The notes beneath the pieces were generated by a model, which was not told where the DNA came from, made no database searches, and saw only the letters and a program-made list of their open reading frames with translations. A stretch of 39,114 bases of DNA from Lentisphaeria bacterium (GTDB taxonomy: Bacteria > Verrucomicrobiota > Lentisphaeria > Oligosphaerales > Oligosphaeraceae), in NCBI GenBank assembly GCA_024405215.1, contig JAKSPB010000028.1:1-39114 (forward strand), in the 5' to 3' direction. Positions 20,527-39,092 of the stretch are shown piece after piece (the first letter of the stretch is position 1; every line of letters begins with the position of its first letter). Position numbers and translations under genes: made by a program.

Positions 20527-20584
20527 CCCATGGTTTTTTGTTTTTTTTGTGTCACATACCGAGTTCTTCAACAGAAGGAGCATC

Positions 20585-23500
20585 ATGGAAGGCGAGCGCA
20601 TTAACTTTGGCCGTCTGAAGGAAGTTCTTCCGATTCCGGATCTGATCAGCCTCCAGACCAACTCCTATGCAGATTTCCTGCAGATGGATGTCCCCCCCGA
20701 GAAACGTGAAAATCATGGCTTGCAGGAAGTCCTGTCGGATACGTTCCCCTCTGCCGCCTCCGGCAACAAGAACGCTTTCGGCGTGGAGTTCGTCAGCTAC
20801 GATATCAAGGAAGGCGACAACGACCTTTCCGAGCTTTTGAAAGCCGGCGGCACCTACCAGGGTGATCTTTATGTGACCTTCCGCATGAAGGGCGCCAGCA
20901 ACAAGGACATCCGCGAGGAGCGCATCCGCATGGGGCATCTCCCTTTGATGACGCCCAGCGGCTCCTTCATCATCAACGGCAGCGAGCGCGTGATTGTCAG
21001 CCAGCTGCATCGTTCTCCCGGCGTGTGCTTCGAGACGAACCACCACCCCAGCGGCAAGCTGATCTACAGCTACAAGATCCTTCCTGACCATGGATCCTGG
21101 CTGGAAGTCCAGTTCGACATCAAGGATATGATGTATATCTACCTGGACCGCAAACGCCGTCGCCGGAAGTTCCTCATCTCTGTCTTCCTGCGCGCCTTTG
21201 GCTATGACAGCAACCGCGAGATTTTGGACGCCGTCTACGGCATCAAGGAGCTCACGCTGCCCGCCATCTTGAAGGAGAGCGAGCCCTCTCACTATACCAC
21301 CGTGGAAGATGTGACGGATCCCCGCGACAAGGAGGTCGTCCTGGCGAATGCGTTGGAGCCTTTGAATCCCGGCATTCTGGAGAATATCAAGGCCGCCGGC
21401 ATCAAGAAGCTTTCCTTGGTCGACACCAACGAGATTGGCGACTACTTCATCAAGTGCCTGCAGAGCGATTCGACCATCACCTGCGAGGATGCCCAGAAGG
21501 AAATCTACAAGCGCATGCGCCCCAGCGATCCTGCCAACGCGCAGAATGCCCGTGCGCTTTTCGCGAAGATGTTCCAGGATGAGCGCCGTTACGACCTGGG
21601 CCTTGTCGGTCGTTTCAAGCTGAACCAATCCCTGGGCATCAATGTGGACAAGGACGTTCGCATCCTGACCAAGCACGATATCGCCGCCGCGACCCGCGAG
21701 CTGATGCGCCTTTACAAGACCAATGGTCTCCAGGACGACATCGACCATCTCTCCCGTCGCCGCATCCGTACCATCGGCGAACTGCTGCAGAACCAGTGCC
21801 GCGTCGGTTTCAACCGTGTTGCCAACGTGGCTCGCGAGCGCAAGGTCAACAAGAAGACCGAGAATGGCTCTGTCGCCATTTCCAGCCTGATCAGCTCCAA
21901 GGGCTTTGAGAACGCCGTCACGGATTTCTTCCAGCACAACCAGCTTTCCCAGTTCATGGACCAGACCAACTGCCTGTCCGAACTGACCAACAAGCGTCGT
22001 CTGTCCGCCCTGGGTCCTGGCGGTCTGACCCGCGACCGCGCCGGCGCCGAAGTCCGCGACGTCCACGCCAGCCACTACGGCCGCATCTGCCCCATCGAGA
22101 CTCCTGAAGGTCCCAACATCGGTCTGATCTCCAGCCTGGCGCTCTATGCCCAGTTGGACGAGTTCGGCTTCATCCGCACTCCCTACTGCCGTGTCAAGGA
22201 CAAGAAGGTCGTCACCGACAAGAAGGGCAACGCGGTCATCGACTATATGAAGGCCGACGAGGAGGAGTCCCATGTGATTGCGCAGGCCAACGCGCCCCGT
22301 GACGAGAACGGCGCCTTCCTCAACGAGTATGTCCTGGGCCGCAAGGGCGGTGAAGCCGGTGAGTTCCTGGCTTCCGAAGTGGATTACATCGATGTCTCTC
22401 CGAAGCAGATGATTTCCGCTGCCGCCAGTGTGATCACCTTCCTGGAGCACGATGACGCCAACCGCGCGTTGATGGGTTGCAACATGCAGCGCCAGGCAGT
22501 TCCCCTGATGAAGCCCGAGGCTCCTCTGGTGGGGACGGGAATGGAGGGCGTCATCGCACGCTATTCCCACGCCATCCAGGCAGCCACTCGGGACGGCATC
22601 GTGGTTTGGGCGGACGGTTTCAAGATCATCGTCACTCCCGATGGCAAATTCCCGAAGGGCAAGAGCGACGAGGACTACGTGCAGAATCTGGATACTCCTG
22701 AAGTCCAGGTCTATCTGCTTTACAAGTTCCTTCGTTCCAACGCCTGCACCTTGGTCAACCAGCGTCCCATCGTGGAAGCTGGCCAGGAAGTGAAGGCGGG
22801 CCAGCCTCTGGCCGATGGCGCCTGCACCGACGGCGGCGAGCTCGCCCTGGGGCGCAACGTCCTGGTGGCCTTCATGAGTTGGCGCGGCTACAACTACGAA
22901 GACGCCATCATCATCAGCGAGAAGCTGGTGCAGGATGATGTCTACACCTCCATCCACATCAACCTCCAGGAGATCGAGGCCCGTGCCACCAAGCAGGCCC
23001 AGCCTGAGGAAATCACCCGTGACATCCCGAATGTCTCCCAGGAATCCCTGAGCAATCTGGATACCGAGGGTGTCATCCGCATGGGTGCCGTGGTCAAGCC
23101 CGGCGACGTCCTGGTCGGCAAGGTCTCTCCGAAGCAGGAGACCGACTTGGCTCCCGAGGAGCGCCTGCTGAAAGCCATCTTCGGTGAGAAGTCCAGCGAT
23201 GTGAAGGATACCTCCTTGAAGGCCGATCCCGGCAACGACGGTGTCGTGATGGATCTGCGCCTGAGGCGGAACCAGGATCCCAGCAAGGTGAAGATGACCA
23301 AGACGGAGCTGAGGACCAGCCAGAACGAGACCCGTGCCAAGTACAAGGCGAAGTACCAGGGCATCATCGAGGATCTGGTGAAGGATCTGAGCGACGAGTA
23401 CCTTGGCAACAAGCTTCCTGTGGAGATCACCGCGCTGAATGCCGAGACCCAGGAGAACGAGGTCCTCGTTCCCGCGGAGCGCAAGATCACCAAGCAGATG

Positions 23501-24628
23501 CTGAGCAATCTGGCCGCAAATTATGAGCGCTACCAGATCCGCGACGGCGAAGACAAGAACAAGATCGACGAGATCATCAAGAAATACCGCGGCAAGCTTC
23601 GCGAGAACGAGCGCTGCTGCGAGGAAGCCATTGCGCTGCTGGAGAAGAACGAAGGCGCTGAACCTGGCAAGATCACCCATGTGAAGGTCTACATCGCCAG
23701 CAAGCGTCGTCTCTCCATTGGTGACAAGATGGCCGGTCGTCACGGTAACAAAGGTATCGTCTCCAAGATCGTCCCCGTGGCGGATCTGCCCTTCATGGCG
23801 GACGGCACTCCTGTGGAAATCGTCCTGAATCCCATGGGTGTTCCTTCCCGAATGAACATCGGACAGGTTTTCGAGACCCATGTGGGCTATGCCGCGAAGA
23901 TCCTCGGCATCACCGTTGCGACTCCTGCGTTCGACGGTATGCCCGAAGAACGCATGATCGACTTGCTGGAACGCGCCCGTCTGGTGAAGATCGCCCAGGC
24001 TGCCGGTGCCGAAGTGCCTGAGAAGCTGATGGAAGATCTCCGCAAGGTGGATGGCACCGCGGTGGAGAAGGCCAAGCTGGAAGTGCGCAACCTCATCAGC
24101 GCAGCCGGTTGGAATGTCGGTCCCCGCGATGACAGCGTCTGCACTGGCGGAAAGGTCACCGACGCCAATGGCGCCGACCGCACCGACGACTTCGTCGACA
24201 TTGACGGCAAGACTCGCCTCTACGATGGTCGCACCGGCGATGCCTTCGACCAGCGCGTCATGGTCGGACAGATCTACATGCTGAAGCTGGACCACCTGGT
24301 GGTCAACAAGATCCACGCCCGCGCCGTCGGTCCCTACTCCCTGGTCACCCAGCAGCCGCTGGGCGGCAAGGCCCAGGGCGGCGGTCAGCGTTTCGGTGAA
24401 ATGGAAGTCTGGGCCCTGGAAGCCTACGGCGCCGCCTATACGCTCCAGGAGATGCTCACGGTCAAGTCCGACGACATTTCTGGCAGAACCAAGATCTACG
24501 ATTCCATCATGAAGGGCAACAACGAGCTGGATGCGGGGGTCCCCGAATCCTTCAACGTGCTGTTGCGTGAAATGATGAGCCTCTGCCTGGATGTCCGTAT
24601 CAACCACGCCAATTCCAATATGGCGTAG
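20585..24628 (+). CDS. rpoB: DNA-directed RNA polymerase subunit beta
   Basis: The 1,347-residue subunit is full length (E. coli 1,342). Landmarks: RMGHLPLMTPSGSFIINGSE in the protrusion; the rifampicin-pocket segment LSQFMDQTNCLSELTNKRRL and ALGPGGLTRDRAG; CPIETPEGPNIGLI; GRNVLVAFMSWRGYNYEDAI; KMAGRHGNKGIVS; and QQPLGGKAQGGGQRFGEMEV at the C-terminus. AAGGAG near 20575-20580 selects ATG 20585 over an upstream in-frame GTG. Residue 469, equivalent to E. coli His526, is Asn, a position linked to rifampicin resistance. TTA, CTA and TCA codons are absent. Confidence 0.98.
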   Translation: MEGERINFGRLKEVLPIPDLISLQTNSYADFLQMDVPPEKRENHGLQEVLSDTFPSAASGNKNAFGVEFVSYDIKEGDNDLSELLKAGGTYQGDLYVTFRMKGASNKDIREERIRMGHLPLMTPSGSFIINGSERVIVSQLHRSPGVCFETNHHPSGKLIYSYKILPDHGSWLEVQFDIKDMMYIYLDRKRRRRKFLISVFLRAFGYDSNREILDAVYGIKELTLPAILKESEPSHYTTVEDVTDPRDKEVVLANALEPLNPGILENIKAAGIKKLSLVDTNEIGDYFIKCLQSDSTITCEDAQKEIYKRMRPSDPANAQNARALFAKMFQDERRYDLGLVGRFKLNQSLGINVDKDVRILTKHDIAAATRELMRLYKTNGLQDDIDHLSRRRIRTIGELLQNQCRVGFNRVANVARERKVNKKTENGSVAISSLISSKGFENAVTDFFQHNQLSQFMDQTNCLSELTNKRRLSALGPGGLTRDRAGAEVRDVHASHYGRICPIETPEGPNIGLISSLALYAQLDEFGFIRTPYCRVKDKKVVTDKKGNAVIDYMKADEEESHVIAQANAPRDENGAFLNEYVLGRKGGEAGEFLASEVDYIDVSPKQMISAAASVITFLEHDDANRALMGCNMQRQAVPLMKPEAPLVGTGMEGVIARYSHAIQAATRDGIVVWADGFKIIVTPDGKFPKGKSDEDYVQNLDTPEVQVYLLYKFLRSNACTLVNQRPIVEAGQEVKAGQPLADGACTDGGELALGRNVLVAFMSWRGYNYEDAIIISEKLVQDDVYTSIHINLQEIEARATKQAQPEEITRDIPNVSQESLSNLDTEGVIRMGAVVKPGDVLVGKVSPKQETDLAPEERLLKAIFGEKSSDVKDTSLKADPGNDGVVMDLRLRRNQDPSKVKMTKTELRTSQNETRAKYKAKYQGIIEDLVKDLSDEYLGNKLPVEITALNAETQENEVLVPAERKITKQMLSNLAANYERYQIRDGEDKNKIDEIIKKYRGKLRENERCCEEAIALLEKNEGAEPGKITHVKVYIASKRRLSIGDKMAGRHGNKGIVSKIVPVADLPFMADGTPVEIVLNPMGVPSRMNIGQVFETHVGYAAKILGITVATPAFDGMPEERMIDLLERARLVKIAQAAGAEVPEKLMEDLRKVDGTAVEKAKLEVRNLISAAGWNVGPRDDSVCTGGKVTDANGADRTDDFVDIDGKTRLYDGRTGDAFDQRVMVGQIYMLKLDHLVVNKIHARAVGPYSLVTQQPLGGKAQGGGQRFGEMEVWALEAYGAAYTLQEMLTVKSDDISGRTKIYDSIMKGNNELDAGVPESFNVLLREMMSLCLDVRINHANSNMA

Positions 24629-24703
24629 TCGATCCAGGTGTTCGAGTTTGCGTGTGGACGGGAGATCCTCTCCTGTCCGAACCCCCTTTTTTGAGGTAAT
24701 AAA

Positions 24704-27700
24704 GTGGAAACCCTGATGAATAAAGCCGGTTCTGCGACCGATGTTGATGTGATGAAGGACTCCAATAGCGTCTCCATCGGTGTCGCCGCGCCGGAGACCA
24801 TTCGCAAGTGGAGTCACGGTGAAGTCAAGAGCCCTGAGACCATCAACTATCGTACCTTCAAGCCGGAGAAGAACGGTCTTTTCTGCGAAAAGATTTTCGG
24901 GCCTGTGAAGGATTACGAGTGCTCCTGCGGCAAATACAAGCGACTGAAGTACAAGGGCGTGACCTGCGATCGCTGCGGCGTTGAGGTCACACAGGCTCGC
25001 GTCCGCCGTGAGCGCATGGGCCATATCGACCTGGCCTCTCCCGTTTCTCACGTCTGGTTCTACAAGTGCGCCCCCTCCCGTCTGGGCTTGCTGCTGGACA
25101 TGCCGCAGAAGTCCCTGGACCAGGTGCTCTACTACGAGAGTTACGTGGTGCTGGACGGAGGCGACACTCCTCTGGTGGAAAAGCAGATCCTGAGCCAGGA
25201 TGAATACTTTGAAAACCACGAGAACTACGGCGATGCCTTCGAGGCCGGCATGGGTGCCGAGGCCATTGAGAAGCTGCTGGGCAAGATTGATCTGCCCAAA
25301 TTGCATGACCAGCTGAAGGAAGCCCTTGGCACCACCAAGAGCAAGCAGGCCCGCAAGCAGATTGTGAAGCGTATCCGTCTGATCGAGGGATTCCAGAAGA
25401 ACCACATGGATCCCCGCTGGATGGTCCTCCATGTCCTTCCTATCATTCCCCCGGATCTGCGTCCCCTGGTGCCCCTGGAAGGCGGCCGTTTCGCCACCAG
25501 CGACCTGAACGACCTCTATCGTCGTGTCATCAACCGCAACAGCCGTCTGAAGAACCTCCTGAACATCCCCACTCCTCCCGTCATCATCCGCAATGAAAAA
25601 CGAATGCTGCAGGAAGCCGTGGATGCCCTGTTGGACAACGGTCGCCATGGCCGCGCCGTCACGGGCACGGGCAATCGTCCTCTGAAGTCCCTCACCGACA
25701 TGCTGAAGGGTAAGCAGGGACGCTTCCGTCAGAATCTGCTGGGTAAGCGTGTTGACTACTCCGGCCGTTCCGTCATCGTCGTTGGGCCCGAACTGAACAT
25801 CAACCAGTGCGGCCTTCCCAAGGAAATGGCCCTGCGTCTTTTCGAGCCCTTCATCATCCGTCGTCTGCGCGACCTGGGCAAGGTGCACACCGTCCGTAAC
25901 GCCAAGAAGTGGATTGAAGAGCGCCGCAAGGACGTGTGGGATGTGCTGGACGAGGTGGTTTCCGGTCACCCGATTCTGCTGAACCGCGCACCTACGCTGC
26001 ACCGTATTTCCATCCAGGCGTTCGACCCCGTCCTGATTGACGGCCAGGCCATCCGCCTGCATCCGCTGGTCTGCGCGGCCTTCAACGCCGACTTCGATGG
26101 CGACCAGATGGCCGTCCACGTGCCGCTTTCCAACGAGGCGCAGCTGGAAGCCAAGCTGGTGATGCTTTCTCCCAACAACATCTTCTCTCCTGCCGACGGC
26201 CGTCCTCTGGCGCTGCCTTCCCAGGATATGGTTCTGGGTGTCTACTATCTGTGCTACGAAGACGAGGCGCGGAAGAATGCCTTCCTGGCCAAGCCCGCCC
26301 AGGAGCAACCCCACTATGACAGCTACGAGGAAGTCATGCAGGCCATGGAGGCCCATATCCTGGCCAACGAGAACAACCACAACGCCCGCGAGCCCATCCC
26401 GGTGGGTCTTGGCATCCATGATTTCTTCTACTACCGCAATCCCTACTACCGCGAGCCTGAGGAAGTCGCCCGCATTGCCGCTCTGACGGGCGACGAGAAG
26501 GAGAAACAGGACTTCGAGGACCGCAAGATGGTCTGGGGCAACCGCAAGGAGCGCTGGATCGCCACCACGGCCGGTCGTCTGATCTATCACGAGATCTGGC
26601 CCAGCGTGCTGGGACTCTGGAACAAGAAGGCCGTTAAGAAGGACATTCAGGGCATGATCAAGCAGTGCCACGAAATCTGCGGGCACGACGAGCTGCTGCC
26701 GTTGCTGGACCGCCTGAAGAACCTGGGTTACACCTGGGCGACCCGTTCCGGCTTCTCCATCGCTATCGCGGATATGCTGATTCCCTCCGACAAGGCCGAG
26801 AAGATTTCCGCTGCTCAGCAGGAAGTCGCTTACGCCCGTAAGGAACTGGAGCAGGGCTCCATCGATGAAAGCGTCCGCCGCCAGAAGTGCATCGACACCT
26901 GGACCAATGTCCGTAACGACCTGAAGAAGACCCTGCAGGACACCCTGAAGGGCAACGCTGGCCGCGTGGGCATCAATTCCGTGTGGGCGATGCTGGAATC
27001 CGGCGCCCGTGGTTCTGCCGACCAGGTGACTCAGCTGGGCGGTATGCGTGGTCTGATGTCCAATACCAGTGGTGAAATCGTCGAGACCCCCATTCTGCAC
27101 AACTTCCGTGAAGGTCTGACCGGTCTGGAATACTTCAACTCCACCCACGGTTCCCGAAAGGGTATGGCCGATACCGCTCTGAAGACCGCTGACGCAGGTT
27201 ACATGACCCGTCGTCTGGTCGACGTTGCCCACGATGTCATCTGCACCGAAGAGGACTGCGGCACCAGCAACGGCATCTGGCTGACGGCTCTGAAGGATGG
27301 TAACAAGGAGACCAAGTCTCTGGCCGACCGTATCGTCGGACGCTTCTCCGCGGATAACATCTACGACAGCATGAACAACCTGATCGTGGGCGCCGGCGAA
27401 GAGATCACCCCCTACATCGCCAGCAAGCTGAAGGAAGCTGGCCACGAGAAGGTGCACATCCGTTCCGTCCTGACCTGCCAGTCCGAGCGCGGCGTCTGCG
27501 CCAAGTGCTATGGCCGCAACCTGGCCACCGGCGAACTGCCGATGGAAGGTGACGCGCTGGGCATCATCGCGGCACAGTCCATCGGTGAACCCGGTACCCA
27601 GCTGACCCTGCGTACCTTCCACTCCGGTGGTACCGCGTCCGCTTCCGCGGCCGACAAGGAAATCCACGCCAAGTGGGATGTTCCCGCCAGCGAACTCCAG

Positions 27701-29281
27701 AAGAAACTGGATGAACTGGAAGCCAAGGCCAAGGCGGAAAAGTGGAGCGACAAGATGCTTGCCGATGAAAAGGCCGTGCTGGAAGCCAAGGAGAACGTCG
27801 CTTTCCTGACCTTTGAGAACCTGGATTTCATTAACGGTGTCGACGAGGAAGGCAAGCCTGCCAAGATCGTCGTCTCCCGTGATGGTCACATCCATGCCAA
27901 GGCCGCGCTCTTCCCGAAGGGCAGAAAGGAAGCCATGATGGGCGATGTGGACCTGAATACCTTCGACATCCCCTACGGTTCCGTGCTGCGCATCTCCGAG
28001 GAACAGCTGGTGAAGCCCGGCGAGCTGATCGCCACCATGGATCCTTTCACCACGCCCGTCATCGCGCGCAAGAAGGGTATCATCCGCTTCGTTGACTTGA
28101 TCGATGGCCAGACCATCCGCAAGACTTTCAACAAGCAGTCCGGCAAGAGCGAAATCACGGTCATCCAGCATCCTGAAGACACCCATCCGTCCTTGCAGAT
28201 CGTGGATTCCAAGGATAAGAGCGTGGTCCTCCAGACCGAGGCTCTTTCCGAAGGCACCCAGATCATCTTCGATGACGGCAAGCGGGTGAAGGAAGGTGAA
28301 TTCATCGCCAAGACTCCCAAGACCCAGGCCAAGACCTCCGATATCACCACCGGTCTTCCTCGTGTCGCCGAGCTCTTCGAGGCTCGTCGTCCCAAGGAGG
28401 CAGCCGTCATCGCCAAGATCAGCGGCTACGTGGAAATCGGCAGACAGGTCAAGAACAAGATCATGGTCAAGGTCCGCGACCCCGAGACCAACGAGGCCCA
28501 GGAGCATCTGGTGCCCACGGGCAAGCGCCTGAATGTGAACAACGACGACTACGTGGAGGCCGGCGATTGCCTGACGGACGGCGCACCCGTCCTGCAGGAA
28601 TACCTGGACATCTGTGGACCTCAGAAGCTGCAGGCCATGTTGGTCGAATCCGTCCAGCGCGTCTATCTGGCGCAGGGTGTCGGCATCAACGACAAGCACA
28701 TCGAGATCATCGTTCGCCAGATGATGCGCAAGGTCCGTATTACCGATCCTCACGACACTACCTTCCTCTTCGGCGAGACCGTTGACATGCGCGCCTTCAA
28801 CGCCGTCAACGACAAGGTCGTCGCGGAAGGCAAGACCCAGGCCGACGGCCAGCAGATCCTGCAGGGCATCACCAAGGCCTCTCTGGCTACCGACTCCTTC
28901 ATCAGCGCCGCATCCTTCCAGGATACTCCCCGTATCCTTACCGAGGCCGCTACGCTGGGCCGCGTGGACTACCTCCACGGCTTCAAGGAGAACGTCATCA
29001 TGGGTCATCTGATTCCTGCCGGTACCGGTTACTACAAGGTTCAGAACCCCGTTCTGAAGACCTTCGATGCCGATGGCAACGCCATTGAGATCACCGATGA
29101 CGGCAGCCATACCGCCGAACCCGACAGCGTCTACGAGGATACGGATACCGATCTGGGACTCGGCAACGCCACCGACGAGGCGGATCTGGCCGAGAACGAC
29201 CTGAACATCGGTTCCGCTCGCGAGACTGGTCTCTTCGACGCCAGCCACAACGACGCGAACCTCCTGGATTCTCTGGAATAA
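24704..29281 (+). CDS. rpoC: DNA-directed RNA polymerase subunit beta'
   Basis: The 1,525-residue subunit is full length with some insertions relative to E. coli (1,407). The first zinc site is C73, C75, C88, C91. The catalytic loop NADFDGDQM places Mg-binding Asp463, Asp465 and Asp467. The second zinc site uses EEDCGT and [16 protein letters not shown] lysine/alanine/glutamate-rich insert near [20 protein letters not shown] follows the [16 protein letters not shown] trigger-loop region. GAGGT at 24693-24697 fits GTG 24704 (6-base spacing) better than ATG 24716. TTA, CTA and TCA codons are absent. Confidence 0.98.
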
Positions 29282-29307
29282 TCCAGAGCGTCTGGAGCGA
29301 TAAATAG

Positions 29308-29347
29308 AAAAAGGCTGTTGCAAGATTTCTTTTGCAACAGCCTTTTT
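29308..29347. terminator. Bidirectional terminator between rpoC and the pseudouridine synthase gene
   Basis: GGCTGTTGCAA (29313-29323) pairs perfectly with TTGCAACAGCC (29332-29342), flanked by an A-run and a T-run, so it can end transcripts from both strands. The stem shares GGCTGTTGCA with the hairpin at 6995-7035. Confidence 0.92.
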
Positions 29348-31855: not shown

Positions 31856-32358
31856 GGAAGAAAGAAGATTGGACTTGATACTTTGGAATAATGTAATACC
31901 ACGCATGTGCGCGGGCGGTAGCTCCAGGAGCCCATGTGGGGCGCGATGGCTCCGTCCTGGCATCCCCAATGCGGGGGGGCGACGCCCCCGCACTCCACGA
32001 CTCTCCTATTAGCATTTCCCATCAAACCCATCAAATTCAGGTTTGCCATGGAAAAATATTTTTGTTTTATGAAAATAAACTGATTGTATATTTCATATTT
32101 TGCGCGATGAGGCGGAAGGATTCGGTTTTCCTACCTGATTATGCGGTAAAAAAGTCATATTGCGTCTTTCATGGATTCTTTTCGGGAAAGAGGTTTAGAA
32201 AAATATTCTGAAAATATATTGATTTTTTAAACTCAATCGTATTGCAAACATCGCGCAAAGGGGCTATATTCTCTTTATCGACCGATTGGAAATGTCGAAT
32301 GCACCCATGGAACCGCCGACCATGCGCCGGCAATACCGAAAAAAGGAGAACCGAAACG
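31856..32358. other. Divergent intergenic region with a GC-rich hairpin and an A/T-rich promoter part
   Basis: These 503 bases separate the minus-strand ACT-MBL gene from the plus-strand giant gene. TGCGGGGG (31970-31977) pairs with CCCCCGCA (31985-31992), a very strong hairpin with no T-run. From 32040 the sequence is A/T-rich and contains the promoter at 32242-32270. The short open frames here look random and no gene is called. Confidence 0.6.
32242..32270 (+). promoter_or_regulatory. Promoter of the giant surface-protein operon (TTGCAA-N17-TATATT)
   Basis: TTGCAA at 32242-32247 and TATATT at 32265-32270 are 17 bases apart and preceded by an A/T-rich tract. The GGCTAT context matches the recA box (GGCTATCTT). 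The leader would be about 80 bases, with AAGGAG at 32344-32349 before ATG 32359. Confidence 0.75.
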
Positions 32359-35300
32359 ATGAACTGGAAACGAAAGAACCGTGTCTTGCTGCGTCTCGCC
32401 TATTGCGGGGCCCTCGCCTTGCCATTGTTGCGTCTTCTCGCCATTCCGCATGTGTTCGACACAGGACCGGTGCTGATCCGCGAGGTCTATGTGGACTCCA
32501 TGAACGGTAGCGACGGCAATTCCGGCGACTCCTCGGGAGCCGCCTTCAAGACGCTGGGTGCCGCGGTCACGGCGATCCAGGCGTCCCAATGCGACGGCAC
32601 CGTGCACGTACTGCCGGGAACCTACTTCGGCGAAGGGAACCGCGACCTGGACTTCGGCGGGCGCAATATCCATATCGTCTCCACGGCGGGCGCGGAGAGC
32701 ACCGTCGTGGACCTGGGAGGCATGGGGGCATTCCTCTCGCTGCATGGCGGCGGGACCGCGGGGAGCTCCCTGGAGGGGCTGACCATCCGCAACGGCGTCG
32801 ACGACGGTTCCGCCGTGATCGACCTGGAGGGCGCCTCCCTGGCCATCGCGGGGTGCGTGCTTTCCGGCAACGAAGGCAGACTGGGCGCGGTCTCCGTCTC
32901 CGGCGGCAGCCTGTCCCTGTCGGACACCGTCCTCTCCGGAAACTACGCTTGGGACGGCGCGGGCGCGCTGAACGCCTCCGCGGACGCCTCCGTCGCCGTC
33001 ACCGGCTGCGACTTCCAGGGTAATTTCGGATACTATGCCTCTGCTGTCCTGGTGGACTTCGCGGACGCGGATTTCGCCCAATGCGTTTTCCAAGGCAACA
33101 GCTGCATGGGAACGGGCGCGGCGGTCGTCGTACGTAGCGACGACGCAGACGACTGCCTGGGGCTGGAGAACTGCCTCGTGCAGGGAAACCAGGACTTCGA
33201 CGGGCCGTACGGTCTTTCCGGCGTGGCCGCCTACGGCGCGGCGGGGCTTTCGCTGCTCAACTGCACCGTCCAAGGCGAGGGGACGGTGCTCCACGCCGAA
33301 GGGACGGCACTTCTGGATAATAGCATTGTGGAAGGGGAAATGTACCTTCCGCAGGCTACCCTCGCCGACAACAATTACACTCCTGAAAATCTGGACGACT
33401 ACGGCTACGGCAACCTCCAGGGCGACGACCCTGGCGTGAATCCCGATGGAACCTTGACGCCGGACTCTCCTTGCATTGATTCGGGAAGTGTCGACTACGC
33501 CAGCGGCACCGATATCTCCGGTGCCTTCCGTGACGACGGCCTGCCGGACATCGGCTGCACGGAGTTCAAATCCGATTCTTCCGACTCTTCCGACAAGTCC
33601 GCCCCTTCCGCCCCTTCCGACAAGTCCGGCAGCAACAAGCCGTCCGATGAATACAATCCCTATCACTATTCCGAACACGCCTTCAAGCCGGGCTACGTGA
33701 CGCTGACCTGCGGCGAACTTCGCGCTGCGGGAAAGGACTACGGCGCCCTGAAGAGCCTTCTGGAGGGGAAGTTCGCCTCGCAGCTCGAGTGGGACTGCCA
33801 CTGGAGCTACTCCGTCCCCGTCCGCAACGAGTATGGGCGCATCGTGGATTACAACTACGGGACGCAGGATTGTACGGCGCAGCGGATTTCCCCCTGGCTG
33901 GACGATTTCCAGGACACCATCGGGCGCCATCCCGTCTTTTCCGACCAGTTCAGCCCCTGGTTCTGCCTGGGGAGGCTCCATTATGGATGCTCGGAAGACG
34001 AACGGACCATGTACGTCGGCGCCGAAATCGCCGAGCACGAGCTTGGCTGGACCGGCAAGGACTCCGAGGACTACCCCTGCTTCATGGCCGGCCTGCTTCC
34101 CGATCCGGACAACGGGTTCCTGGCAAAGCCCCGTGTGAACGTGCCCCTGGGCTTGCACCTGAGACTCCGGACCGACTGGGGCGGCGACGAGATCCGCCCC
34201 TGCGCCGAGCCCTGGGAGTACGACGCGCCCGTCGACGCCGGCTGCAAGGTGCTGAAGGCCATGAGCTGCCTGTCGTGCGGCATGGAGAGGCGGATCGACC
34301 CCGACCCCATGCCGTCGTGGAACAGCCGCGTCCTCTATCATCGTGACTGCTACTTCACCCCCGAGGTCTCCGACGAGGAGTACCCGGCCGCGTTGGCTGC
34401 TGCGAAGGCCGTCAGCGCACGGTGCCGCTACGGCGGGGCGTACTTCTGGGAGACTGCGGCTCTGAATCTCGAGGGGACGGGCGCCAGTTCCTGGAACCGG
34501 GACTATACTACCGTATGCGACAGGACGGGCCGCCGGAGGCTCACCTTCCGGAAAGCCTGCCTGGGAGTAACCGTGCACAAGGACGACTACCGCTCCCATA
34601 TGAACTGCGGAAGCTACACACCCAATCTCGCCATCCCCCTGCAGTCCTGCGGCGAGAGCGCTCTCTCCTACGACGTCACCACAGTTGGCATCGGAGGGCT
34701 CGCCGCCGACGGCGGAACGGCGACGGCATTGGTGCGGGACGCCTCGGGCGACTTTTTCCGACGCTACCTGCTGATGCCCTCCAGGATCGACCAGGAGGAG
34801 GAGAAGGAGTTCCACGCCCGCGCCCGCAAGGCGCGTGCCGCAGGCACGGCGACCTTCCAGGCCGCGCCCGAGGGCGGAGCCTGGCCCACCGAGGCGGACT
34901 ACCCCACGGGAGAGTATCCGAAGGAGCGGAACGATTGGTCCTGGACGCCATGCTGGCGCTTCCCCCGGTGGAGCCTCTCCGGCAGTGGAATCCCGTCGTA
35001 CGGCGACATCCGCGACGACGATGGCTCCGCGCTGCTGGCGGTTGCGAAGGCCGTCCAAGGCGGGGAAGCCAATGGCCAGGCGACCCTGGAGATCCCCTTC
35101 GACCTGGGGACGGGGCGCTATCTCCTGACGTCCAGCTGCCACGCCGACGAATGGTGGTGGCGTCCGGCCAACGGCGCGACGCCCACGGCGGACGCGTGCC
35201 AGGGCTGGAACCTCGGCGAGAAGAGCTGGAACGTGCTGGCCTGCGACATCCGCGTGGACATGCTGGAGGACAAGGCGGAAAGCCCCTTGCCCCTGCTGCT

Positions 35301-37962
35301 CCTCAACGACGACTATGACGACGATGACTTCGTCAAGCAGAAGCTGAAGGCAAAGGAGGTCTTCTGGACGGAGGACTCCCTGAAAGCGGATCTGGACAGG
35401 ACGGGACCGATTTCCTACATTGACGACGACCTGAAGGCCGTGAAGGTCACCGTGCCGGACGTATTCGGCGGCGACCGCGAACTTCTGAAACGCCTCTGGA
35501 TCCGCGTCAAGGCGGAGAATGGCATCCGGTTCTATGGCGACGAAAAGAAGAACGCTCCTGACGCGCGAAGCTGGACGAAGGAAGACAACGGCGCCGACGG
35601 CGCCAAAGTCGGCGAAAATGGCGAAAAGGCCGAAGAGAAGAACTCCTGGCTCTTCCGCGTGCTGCCTCCGAATGAATACGGCGCACGGTTCTCCTGCCAG
35701 CTCTTCGCGGAGGGCGTAAAGCAGGGCGAGGGCATCGTCACCGCCACTCTGCTGCTGGCGGATGAATCCAATGGACAGGACGCGCGGCCGGGCTTCACGC
35801 CTGTCGTCGCGGACGCCATGGAGGTGTCTGTCATCCGCGTGGCCCTCGTCCCCGACTACGGACGCGACGGCTCCATCGACGACGCCGACCGCGTTGACGC
35901 CCTTAAGGGGCGCCCCCTTCGGATGTGGTATAACGACAACACCGACATCGACGGCTTCAACCTCTGGGATTTCGAGAATGACGAAGAGAACAAGCGCGTG
36001 TCTCATGTGAAGTATAATCATCCCGAAACCAATAGGACAAGTCCCAACTGCAACGACGGCATCGTGAACGGTCGGGGCGACCTGCTGGATCTCTTCCCCG
36101 TCTGGCTGGACGCGAAGGATTTCCTGATCTTGAACGGCGGGGAATGGGAGCCGCAGGTGGCGTTGAGCCACGCCAGGAATGAAATCCAGGCGGTCTATTC
36201 CGATCTGGCTCCCGGCGCCGTGAAGGACTTCCGCCACCAGGATGGCCACAGGGGCTATTCCGCCAAGGGGGACGATGCGCTCCATGAGGCGTCCGTCCAC
36301 GGCCTGGGGGAGGAGTTTCCCGCAGGCTTCCTGGACGAATGCCGGAACGGAAATGGCGTCCTTCTCTGTGAAGGGCACAGCCCTACGGATACGACAAACG
36401 AATCCTGCATCAATGCCGTCTTCCAGCTGGTACGGAAGAACGCCGACGGCTCCAAAACGGTCCACACGGTGGGACGCTGCAGGCTGAACACCTCCGTCTC
36501 GCCGGTCTCCGCCATGTACCGCTACTACAGCCTGCGCGGCTGCGAAAAGGATCCCGCCAAATCCGCGACGCGGGTCAACGGCGCGGCCATGCCGGGTGCG
36601 ACGGGAGTTGACGTCTCCGAGCCGGCGAACATGCCGGACAACGAGACCGATCCCGTGTACTTCGCCTTCGTCCATGGCTTCAACGTGGACGAGAAGGAGA
36701 GCGGCAACTGGCAGGGACGGATGTTCAAGAGGCTCTACCAGACCGGCGCGAATGTCCGCCTGGTGGGCATTGACTGGAACGGAGACTATAGTTGCCAATG
36801 GAACTACCACACCAACGCGGAGCATGCCTTCCGCACGGCCGGTGCCTTGAAGGAGTGCGTGACCGAGCTGGCGTCCAAGGGCGGGAAGGTCTTCCTCCTG
36901 GGGCACAGCCTGGGGAACATGCTGGTCTCCAGCGCCATCGTCGACCGCACGATGGCGGCGGACGGATTCTTCATGCTCAACGCGGCCGTCGCCGCGGAGG
37001 CGTATGACCCGGAAAGGCACAATACCTGTTCAAACATGAACCGGATGGTTCCCAAGGCATGGCGGAAGTATCCTTTCCAAACTTGGTCCGCTGAATGGTA
37101 CAGCCATTTCCCGGAAGGAGACGACAGAAGCAGGCTTACTTGGAAAGGTCGCTTTGAAGCCATGCTCCATGCACCAGGGACTGGGGCCGGCGCCAAGCTT
37201 ACAGTCTACAACTACTTCGATTCCCAGGACGAGGTCATCGGAACCTTCGTCGGCGACAATCCGGCGGATGACGAGGAACTCTGGGTGACCGATGAAACCG
37301 GGATTGGACGTCTCCTGGTTGGGAAAACCGGCGATTTCGACATTACCTCGCGGCAGTTTGCATGGCATAAGCAGGAGTTTACAAAGGGCAGGCGGAATGG
37401 CTTCCACTGGCTGTTGGAAACAGGCTTTGGGAAATACCTCAAAGACGAAACGAATGTCCACCCGGAACACGAGGACTTCGCCTATACCGACGAGGCCGGA
37501 TGGGGATTCCAGGAGTTTGAAAGAACGGGAAGGAGGCATAGCAGCCGTGGCGGTTGGCAAACATATAGATACAGTGCCCGAAAGTCTGTCAAGGAGGCGA
37601 AGGCCATGAAGGATAACAAGAAGGCGTTGCAGGACTTCAACCAGGCCGTCTTCCTTCACAATCCCGCATACATGGCCCAGCCGACCATATCCCAGAAGGA
37701 TCAGGATCATCTCCTGGCATTCGGAATCCCCGCGCTGTCAGGAACGGCAGGATCGGGTGATGTAGGGGTAATTGAAAAAAAACTTGACATAAGTTCCAAG
37801 AAAAATGCCTGGCAAAGGGATGACGCATTCTGCCTTCACGGAATCTGGGCGCATTCGGACTACATGATCATGCCATATTTCTGCACCTACGGCCTTTACG
37901 AGGAGATCGTAAAAGTCCTGGATCCATCGATGGCAAAAACGGAGCAAAACACAAGCAACTGA
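32359..37962 (+). CDS. Giant secreted protein: beta-helix, SDK linker, large middle region, C-terminal alpha/beta-hydrolase
   Basis: The 1,867-residue protein begins with a basic stretch and a hydrophobic segment (about 8-30), so it is exported or anchored. Residues 42-400 look like a right-handed parallel beta-helix (VYVDSMNGSDGN start, repeated LSGN/FQGN turns). They end in SPCIDSGSVDYASG...DIGCTEF, resembling 'choice-of-anchor' beta-helix termini. A 9-bp-repeat-encoded Ser/Asp/Lys linker follows (405-432). The long middle part is unrecognised; it has a cysteine cluster (CLSCGMERR) and one dockerin/EF-like loop (DYGRDGSIDDAD, about 1164). The C-terminal hydrolase has FAFVHGFNVDE and GHSLGN with Ser1517, likely Asp1624 (FDSQDEV) and His1832 (WAHSDY). 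AAGGAG precedes ATG 32359. A secreted partner follows 13 bases after its stop. Confidence 0.8.
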   Translation: MNWKRKNRVLLRLAYCGALALPLLRLLAIPHVFDTGPVLIREVYVDSMNGSDGNSGDSSGAAFKTLGAAVTAIQASQCDGTVHVLPGTYFGEGNRDLDFGGRNIHIVSTAGAESTVVDLGGMGAFLSLHGGGTAGSSLEGLTIRNGVDDGSAVIDLEGASLAIAGCVLSGNEGRLGAVSVSGGSLSLSDTVLSGNYAWDGAGALNASADASVAVTGCDFQGNFGYYASAVLVDFADADFAQCVFQGNSCMGTGAAVVVRSDDADDCLGLENCLVQGNQDFDGPYGLSGVAAYGAAGLSLLNCTVQGEGTVLHAEGTALLDNSIVEGEMYLPQATLADNNYTPENLDDYGYGNLQGDDPGVNPDGTLTPDSPCIDSGSVDYASGTDISGAFRDDGLPDIGCTEFKSDSSDSSDKSAPSAPSDKSGSNKPSDEYNPYHYSEHAFKPGYVTLTCGELRAAGKDYGALKSLLEGKFASQLEWDCHWSYSVPVRNEYGRIVDYNYGTQDCTAQRISPWLDDFQDTIGRHPVFSDQFSPWFCLGRLHYGCSEDERTMYVGAEIAEHELGWTGKDSEDYPCFMAGLLPDPDNGFLAKPRVNVPLGLHLRLRTDWGGDEIRPCAEPWEYDAPVDAGCKVLKAMSCLSCGMERRIDPDPMPSWNSRVLYHRDCYFTPEVSDEEYPAALAAAKAVSARCRYGGAYFWETAALNLEGTGASSWNRDYTTVCDRTGRRRLTFRKACLGVTVHKDDYRSHMNCGSYTPNLAIPLQSCGESALSYDVTTVGIGGLAADGGTATALVRDASGDFFRRYLLMPSRIDQEEEKEFHARARKARAAGTATFQAAPEGGAWPTEADYPTGEYPKERNDWSWTPCWRFPRWSLSGSGIPSYGDIRDDDGSALLAVAKAVQGGEANGQATLEIPFDLGTGRYLLTSSCHADEWWWRPANGATPTADACQGWNLGEKSWNVLACDIRVDMLEDKAESPLPLLLLNDDYDDDDFVKQKLKAKEVFWTEDSLKADLDRTGPISYIDDDLKAVKVTVPDVFGGDRELLKRLWIRVKAENGIRFYGDEKKNAPDARSWTKEDNGADGAKVGENGEKAEEKNSWLFRVLPPNEYGARFSCQLFAEGVKQGEGIVTATLLLADESNGQDARPGFTPVVADAMEVSVIRVALVPDYGRDGSIDDADRVDALKGRPLRMWYNDNTDIDGFNLWDFENDEENKRVSHVKYNHPETNRTSPNCNDGIVNGRGDLLDLFPVWLDAKDFLILNGGEWEPQVALSHARNEIQAVYSDLAPGAVKDFRHQDGHRGYSAKGDDALHEASVHGLGEEFPAGFLDECRNGNGVLLCEGHSPTDTTNESCINAVFQLVRKNADGSKTVHTVGRCRLNTSVSPVSAMYRYYSLRGCEKDPAKSATRVNGAAMPGATGVDVSEPANMPDNETDPVYFAFVHGFNVDEKESGNWQGRMFKRLYQTGANVRLVGIDWNGDYSCQWNYHTNAEHAFRTAGALKECVTELASKGGKVFLLGHSLGNMLVSSAIVDRTMAADGFFMLNAAVAAEAYDPERHNTCSNMNRMVPKAWRKYPFQTWSAEWYSHFPEGDDRSRLTWKGRFEAMLHAPGTGAGAKLTVYNYFDSQDEVIGTFVGDNPADDEELWVTDETGIGRLLVGKTGDFDITSRQFAWHKQEFTKGRRNGFHWLLETGFGKYLKDETNVHPEHEDFAYTDEAGWGFQEFERTGRRHSSRGGWQTYRYSARKSVKEAKAMKDNKKALQDFNQAVFLHNPAYMAQPTISQKDQDHLLAFGIPALSGTAGSGDVGVIEKKLDISSKKNAWQRDDAFCLHGIWAHSDYMIMPYFCTYGLYEEIVKVLDPSMAKTEQNTSN
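33571..33624 (+). repeat. 9-bp codon-phased repeats (TCCGACAAG type) in the surface-protein linker
   Basis: Six 9-base units (TCCGATTCT, TCCGACTCT, TCCGACAAG, TCCGCCCCT twice, TCCGACAAG) encode Ser-Asp-Ser, Ser-Asp-Lys and Ser-Ala-Pro triplets. The core TCCGAC and the 9-base period equal those of the intergenic array at 1-99. Confidence 0.85.
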
Positions 37963-37975
37963 CAAGGAGGACACC

Positions 37976-39043
37976 ATGAACAAGATGAAGAACTGCCTTT
38001 GCATCGCTTTTTCCGCCTTCCTTTTTCTTTCTCCCCATGTCTTCGGTTACGGACGCGGCATCTTCTTCCGGCTCTTCGGGGCGGAGGCGAAGATCTGCGC
38101 CACGGTCGTGGACGACGACGGCAAGCCCGTGGAGGACGCGGAGGTGACGGCGACCTACCGGCTGTATCACACGGGGTGGGGAGACTGCGTGAACAACGTG
38201 ACGTGCTTGACCGACGCCGCGGGACGAGCCGACCTGGCGGGGCGCTGCGACGAGTTCGACGCATGGGTCATCGCGGAGAAGGATGGGTTCTACCGGACTT
38301 GCGAGGAACGTTCCGTGAAAAGCGAGGACAATCCGGACGGAAAGGGCATCTACACCAAGTGGGGGAAGTGGAACCCATACGGCGTGAAGAAAACCTATGT
38401 CCTGAAGGAGATCCGGAATCCCGTGCCTATGGTGGTGTTCCGGGATATTGCCATGTCTTCAACTGAATTTGACAAGGAATTCGGCTTTGACCTGGAATAC
38501 GGGGATTTCGTGAAGCCCTACGGCGACGGCGAGGTGGCGGATTTCTACGTGAAGTTCGAATGGGACGAGGATGCGCAAAATCTGGTGAAGAAGATGACGA
38601 TGACTTTTCCCAACGCCCTTGACGGAGCCTACATCTGTCCGTATTATGAGCCATCCCGGCTGAAGAGTCCCTACCGGGCGGATGAGGAGGCACAGTATCT
38701 GAAGGAGTTTGTCTTCTCTAAAACAAGAAAAAGGGATCCGAAAGAAGGATTCTGGCGGATTGTTTCCGAGGAGCAGCTTGCCAAGGACCAGGGGCTGATC
38801 CTGCGTACGCGAACGAAGGTGGATGCCGACGGCACTCTCGTCAGCGCGCACTACAGCAAGATCTACGGTCAATTTGATATAGGTGGCTATTTCCCGGAAT
38901 TGGAAATTACCAATGGTGGCATTACCTCCTTCTTCAATCCCGTGGAGAACGACACCAACCTGGAGTGCGACGGGAAACCTCATCCCGAACTTCGAAAAGG
39001 AAGAAGGAAAAATGTGGAACATGGCAATTGCGAGGCATTATAG
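37976..39043 (+). CDS. Secreted protein with a carboxypeptidase-regulatory-like domain
   Basis: The 355-residue protein has a signal peptide (CIAFSAFLFLSPHVFG, residues 9-24). A beta-sandwich carboxypeptidase-regulatory/transthyretin-like domain follows at about 37-115 (ICATVVDDDGKPVEDAEVTA, LTDAAGRADLAG, VIAEKDGFYRT). The remaining two thirds (VPMVVFRDIAMSS, FDLEYGDFVKPYGDG) is not a family I can name. AAGGAGG at 37964-37970 fixes the start, 14 bases after the giant gene's stop, so both are one operon. The last 25 residues are rich in charged residues and may follow a frameshift near 38972 (one A fewer in GGGAAACC gives GNLIPNFEKEEGKMWNM). Function is unknown; a partner or accessory protein of the surface protein is plausible. 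Confidence 0.75.
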   Translation: MNKMKNCLCIAFSAFLFLSPHVFGYGRGIFFRLFGAEAKICATVVDDDGKPVEDAEVTATYRLYHTGWGDCVNNVTCLTDAAGRADLAGRCDEFDAWVIAEKDGFYRTCEERSVKSEDNPDGKGIYTKWGKWNPYGVKKTYVLKEIRNPVPMVVFRDIAMSSTEFDKEFGFDLEYGDFVKPYGDGEVADFYVKFEWDEDAQNLVKKMTMTFPNALDGAYICPYYEPSRLKSPYRADEEAQYLKEFVFSKTRKRDPKEGFWRIVSEEQLAKDQGLILRTRTKVDADGTLVSAHYSKIYGQFDIGGYFPELEITNGGITSFFNPVENDTNLECDGKPHPELRKGRRKNVEHGNCEAL

Positions 39044-39058
39044 TTGATGCAGTCCCGC

Positions 39059-39092
39059 CTTCCCGGACAGGCATCCGCGCCTGTCCGGGAAG
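39059..39092 (+). terminator. Strong 14-bp hairpin after the surface-protein operon
   Basis: CTTCCCGGACAGGC (39059-39072) pairs perfectly with GCCTGTCCGGGAAG (39079-39092) around a 6-base loop, 15 bases after the last stop. There is no T-run (GACCC follows), so it may be a rho-independent-like 3' hairpin, an RNA stabiliser, or a dispersed palindrome. Confidence 0.7.

Follow-up and report, generated by a model that had tools for sequence, protein, structure and literature searches.

A candidate polymorphic toxin-immunity pair centered on an exported lipase-like hydrolase in a Lentisphaeria genome

Classical polymorphic toxins exchange unrelated toxin domains. Features already described for such systems include orphan cdiA-CT/cdiI arrays (PMC3150448), tandem immunity paralogues that recombine (PMC9484751), and lipoprotein immunity to lipase effectors, as in Tle3/Tli3 (PMC9860674). 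The concept of a toxic alpha/beta-hydrolase is also known, since Tox-ABhydrolase-1, -2 and -3 were predicted as polymorphic toxins (Zhang et al., 2012; PMC3482391).

We analyzed a window of 39,114 bp, the whole of contig C21 in the 97%-complete genome of a gut Lentisphaeria-type bacterium (2.98 Mb in 82 contigs), whose plus strand carries a gene for a predicted toxin, an exported hydrolase effector of 1,867 aa (gene 1, 32359..37962), followed by a gene for a predicted immunity protein, an exported partner of 355 aa (gene 2, 37976..39043). Like CDI and Rhs systems (PMC3150448, PMC3482391), this family combines a large exported protein ending in a candidate toxin with a small gene directly downstream, has displaced C-termini and partner genes in arrays, and recombines at a conserved stretch. 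Unlike them, it has a single toxin-domain family, an exchange point within the catalytic domain, past the serine, rather than before the toxin, an exported partner, and no TPS, VENN or Rhs features in a Pfam scan. The constancy of the hydrolase family beside variable N-terminal stalks is to be read with the search in mind, which began from the hydrolase and would miss other toxin domains on these stalks.

The likeness to Tle/Tli pairs (PMC9860674) lies in a lipase-like alpha/beta-hydrolase with GxSxG, acid and histidine, in an adjoining partner or immunity gene, and in the compartment, since Tle/Tli immunity proteins sit in the periplasm or outer membrane and the partner here is also exported. 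The differences are a Sec-type signal, a giant N-terminal stalk, an unrelated partner sequence family, and no T6SS sheath gene found. Tox-ABhydrolase-1/2/3 are tied to DUF2235 or to Imm66, Imm69 or SUKH immunities, and no such Pfam match was obtained for the pair; DUF2235 (Tox-ABhydrolase-1) was absent from the Pfam results of 71 family members, and Tox-ABhydrolase-2 and -3 are set apart here through their tied Pfam models, not by direct comparison.

Setting and architecture of the two genes

On the 5' side of the pair lie ordinary genes, read from their translations as recA, murF, EF-Tu, nusG, ribosomal protein genes, rpoB and rpoC. G002, a genome of the same genus, also has the pair, there on a contig of 13,680 bp. 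The first-pass annotation of the window had proposed a two-gene unit with a Shine-Dalgarno sequence, and the genes are as it described, with AAGGAGG before the start of gene 2 and a gap of 13 bp between the stop of gene 1 and that start. It had also given the pair its own promoter, for which there is one promoter-like site (TTGCAA-17-TATATT, 32242..32270, plus strand) with 9 of 12 matches, a level within reach of chance. On the minus strand, very long open frames extend opposite rpoB/rpoC (20552-29323) and opposite gene 1 (32275-37020); codon bias in GC-rich coding DNA is the simplest account of them.

All protein features below are encoded on the plus strand, and the domain layout first proposed for gene 1 holds up. 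The protein begins with a hydrophobic, signal-peptide-like stretch (residues ~1-33, 32359..32457; hydropathy only), in agreement with its first-pass annotation as exported, and continues into a probable parallel beta-helix (residues ~41-415, 32479..33603). A beta-helix had been annotated here, which we consider plausible, not proven: an exported protein from another genome, itself tandemly repeated, is similar to residues ~40-415 (32% identity, E 7e-43), and the choice-of-anchor Q model (NF041518) scores 23.9 bits, just below its cut-off of 25. Domains of ~370 residues related to this helix occur, several in tandem, in exported giant proteins at L012 and other loci of genome G054, from the same class. 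TRF recovered the repeat-encoded Ser/Asp/Lys linker as 4.9 copies of a 9-bp unit (33578..33621). The ~720 residues that follow (433-1149, 33655..35805) matched no family and, among the sequences compared, are shared only by a paralogue in the same genome and by the same-genus genome; a phmmer search of the whole gene 1 protein against PDB sequences gave no match.

Ahead of the hydrolase lies a domain (residues ~1155-1380, 35821..36498) with the conserved motif DxNRDGxID...FWINDDxD...VNGRxDLxDFFPV, for which the libraries and papers that we searched describe no family. A Foldseek search of the hydrolase region placed peptidylarginine deiminase structures at the top (E 1e-4); Foldseek gives no matched region, and the match presumably runs through this pre-hydrolase domain of the model. 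Its acidic motif looks like the calcium-binding middle domain of peptidylarginine deiminases. We rejected membership in PAD_M (PF08527), as there was no sequence match to PF08527 or to deiminase sequences, and keep the resemblance as a fold-level lead only. The N-terminal parts of relatives differ, with TSP3 repeats in 22 of 41 and also RCC1 and laminin-G. What the relatives have in common is not the beta-helix but the last ~700 residues of the protein together with the partner.

The alpha/beta-hydrolase domain occupies residues ~1430-1867 (36646..37959). An AlphaFold model of residues 1150-1867 (mean pLDDT 84.5) agrees with the fold originally assigned: its VIA matches are lipases and esterases, the best being Bacillus lipase A (Z 15.0; 169 residues at an rmsd of 2.6), and include Tle3 (Z 12.9). 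By sequence profile, pancreatic-type lipases match weakly (E 0.003), and Pfam DUF900 matches residues 1436-1529 (24.6 bits against a gathering cut-off of 20.5). DUF900, compared here together with Abhydrolase_6, has no assigned function and reaches no further than the first part of the hydrolase, leaving the pre-hydrolase domain and the tail outside. The catalytic residues lie where the first reading had put them, with Ser1517 in GHSLGN (36907..36909), Asp1624 as the acid (37228..37230) and His1832 (37852..37854). Among 71 relatives, the serine is present in 71, D or E at 1624 in 71, and the histidine in 70, with the full triad in 70. The enzyme is predicted to be lipase-like, a label that rests on fold and motif.

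The partner model (pLDDT 87.9) opens with a signal-like helix at residues 3-34, matching the signal peptide annotated for gene 2. Of 139 partners, 98 begin with an export-signal-like stretch, whereas among control ORFs 144 of 464 do (p=1e-16), and export signals are present in most family members. Residues 36-147 (38081..38416) form the carboxypeptidase-regulatory/transthyretin-like domain that had been suggested, superposing on 2nsm with Z 10.6 and rmsd 1.9 over 79 residues. The beta-rich domain beyond it (residues ~150-335, 38423..38980), which contains the family's invariant positions D172, G185, N321 and E330, had no Pfam or NCBIfam match and no description in the papers searched; among the VIA matches no fold is named for it, which does not make the fold new. 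Partner-like proteins of ~540-764 aa at L037 (genome G003), L042 and L044 have an extra C-terminal region, repeated in the longest.

Coupling of hydrolase and partner across the phylum

We ran HMMs of the hydrolase and partner families on 80 named loci plus array loci from genomes; a scan of genome contigs with a single protein gave no match, and the loci came from a scan with an alignment. Of the 96 distinct hydrolase copies, 88 are immediately followed, on the same strand, by a partner, at a median distance of -9 bp with the HMM start as reference point. One of the loci with the pair, L113, lies on contig NZ_JACHFD010000029 of the cultured Haloferula luteola YC6886. Eight copies had no adjoining partner call: five stop ~220 bp or less from a contig end, one (L040) is followed by three diverged partners, and two (L105 and L215) have no directly downstream partner.

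Of 388 genomes sampled from the phylum, 67 (~17%) have the hydrolase and 65 the partner. Both occur together in 42, about one genome in nine, against 11 expected (p=2e-22), and 23 have a partner and no detected hydrolase. We also examined 15 loci from genomes that had appeared to be hydrolase-only, using an enlarged model: a diverged partner lies downstream in 11, at L219 and L222 the protein after the hydrolase is of similar size and begins with a hydrophobic stretch, and no downstream partner was found at L225 and L228. The absence of the partner beside homologues had been named in advance as evidence against a linked pair; adjacency in 88 of 96 copies and the excess of co-occurrence go the other way, and hydrolase and partner are a conserved two-gene module.

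Partner arrays, displaced tails and recombination

Partners are often found in series. A second hydrolase copy in the same genome, cut by the end of contig C13, is followed by three tandem partners, and three partners in a row follow the hydrolase at L034 and L040. L201 combines complete hydrolase copies with long fragments and with short tails, and every one of them has a partner. Five tails alternate with eight partners at L198 (genome G233), which, like L197 (genome G072), is a partner array with tails only; in neither does the stretch read include a full-length hydrolase, and the two are possibly pure immunity islands.

The window itself probably ends inside such an array, broken by the assembly. 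The first-pass annotation had closed the operon with a strong hairpin 3' of gene 2 (39060..39091, plus strand). The hairpin is real (GC-rich, -32 kcal/mol), whereas its role as the end of an operon is not proven, and we did not accept it as a terminator because it has no T run and recurs as a spacer. We interpret it as an array spacer, since it recurs in the paralogous C13 array and before a further, decayed partner start; the places are 39060-39091 in the window, the spacers of L010, and 1-240 of L052. The start of contig C78 carries the end of a partner, a hairpin of the same shape with a different stem sequence, then ACCCGAAACAATCC and the decayed start of a next partner. Contig C21 stops just past its hairpin, and it is the recurrence in C13 together with the C78 layout that points to a broken array.

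Displaced C-terminal hydrolase tails numbered 27 in 19 loci, a count that leaves out continuations of frameshifted hydrolase copies. A partner follows 25 of the 27, 23 of these within ~22 bp. On the hydrolase model, in which serine, acid and histidine occupy columns 329, 430 and 593, 24 of the 27 begin past the catalytic serine, so that the tails are mostly without it. Some are nearer to a foreign than to the local copy (50% vs 30% at L062, 49% vs 28% at L111), and others match the full-length copy at their own locus with 75-97% identity (L075, L128, L203); tails therefore probably arise by both import and duplication.

Comparison of the window DNA with the C13 paralogue revealed a shared tract of 971 bp at 99% identity (36040..37014, plus strand), corresponding to residues 1228-1552 and running through the catalytic core, including the serine. 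In 50-codon blocks, identity drops to 52-86% on the 5' side of the tract and to 54-81% on its 3' side. The three C13 partners are mosaics: the first halves of b and c share ~90-100% identity and most of their second halves 60-69%, whereas a and c are 87-94% alike in the second half. Between neighboring copies, identity goes from 98-100% down to ~60-69%. Family-wide, partner similarity gave a Spearman coefficient of 0.46 with the pre-hydrolase domain vs 0.32 with the tail. With the rest of the protein controlled for, the tail-specific partial correlation with the partner was only 0.16 family-wide (Mantel-type test), and within genomes the values were 0.33 (p=0.02) and 0.56 (p=0.09); by these values, tail-partner co-variation is weak, and we do not take it as proof.

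Competing interpretations of the pair

The first-pass annotation had suggested a cell-surface enzyme or adhesin. A near-obligatory partner that is tandemly duplicated and recombining, in a family with displaced hydrolase tails, led us to replace that suggestion with a toxin-immunity reading. Gene coupling, tandem diversified partners, tails accompanied by partners and recombination in the core together make up the signature of polymorphic toxin-immunity loci, and by this analogy we consider the pair a probable member of that class. Three observations weigh against the assignment, namely that family-wide partner similarity follows the pre-hydrolase domain more than the tail, that the toxin domain is always of the same family, and that the genome yielded no dedicated delivery machine. 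The T6SS sheath gene VipB was not found in the 97%-complete genome and gene 1 has a Sec-type start, on which grounds we rejected T6SS delivery. Five secretins are present, with nothing specific to delivery, and PADLOC gave no match. A Sec signal by itself accounts for export to the periplasm only.

The strict gene order, the export signals and the intact triad would also fit a lipase or esterase secreted for nutrition or for a role at the surface, with the partner as its dedicated folding factor, activator or co-lipase in the manner of Lif foldases, and one published Tli is reported both to activate and to neutralize its own toxin (PMC10294624). In a foldase, however, nothing would call for arrays with as many as eight diverging copies, for mosaic sequences, or for inactive client tails in front of the gene; the Pfam lipase chaperone models do not match the partner, and the 23 sampled genomes with a partner and no detected hydrolase are a further point against a helper, which we judge improbable. 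More improbable still is an exported lipase that damages its producer, with an inhibitor shielding only the producer's own envelope and no role in competition: coupling, co-localization and the missing T6SS sheath gene are accounted for, but the diversification, the foreign-like cassettes and the partner-only genomes are left without explanation. For the arrays alone, the displaced tails may be functionless passengers, carried along in partner-gene duplication because the hydrolase and partner genes abut. Tails that closely resemble the local copy and mostly lack the serine speak for this, whereas several are closer to a foreign copy and tails that are 50-70% divergent are still in frame; we think it unlikely, though less so than the helper, and passenger tails would leave the toxin-immunity reading of the main pair unchanged.

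Under the toxin-immunity reading, we infer enzymatic activity, toxicity, neutralization, target and exit route as follows. Gene 1 would be a Sec-exported toxin in which a variable stalk, probably a beta-helix in this case, precedes a conserved pre-toxin domain and a lipase-like C-terminal hydrolase, the probable targets of which are membrane lipids or esters in neighboring cells. The gene 2 protein, exported to the same compartment, would bind the hydrolase and so spare the producer and its siblings. Homologous recombination within the conserved catalytic core would generate diversity, swapping the acid/His tail together with the downstream partner gene, and spare tail-plus-partner cassettes and extra partners would be retained in tandem.

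We found no paper on the hydrolase-partner pair in the part of the literature covered, and no prior description of the mid-enzyme exchange point, the pre-hydrolase domain or the partner C-terminal domain in the libraries and papers searched. Tentatively, and with rather less confidence than for the pair itself, we suggest that these genes may represent an undescribed class of polymorphic lipase toxins, Sec-exported and widespread across Verrucomicrobiota taken broadly (Lentisphaeria, Kiritimatiellae, Verrucomicrobiia). In this class the variable cassette would start inside the enzyme, gene conversion would homogenize the serine core, the acid/His tail and exported immunity gene would be swapped as a unit, and delivery would be by a route other than T5SS, T6SS or T7SS.

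The interbacterial weapons of this group seem little studied. If the interpretation is correct, the pair would provide a concrete antagonism system in gut and environmental Verrucomicrobiota/Lentisphaerota, with the hydrolase in 67 of 388 genomes and a further set carrying only the partner, and would add an undescribed immunity family and a toxin whose specificity is swapped in mid-enzyme.
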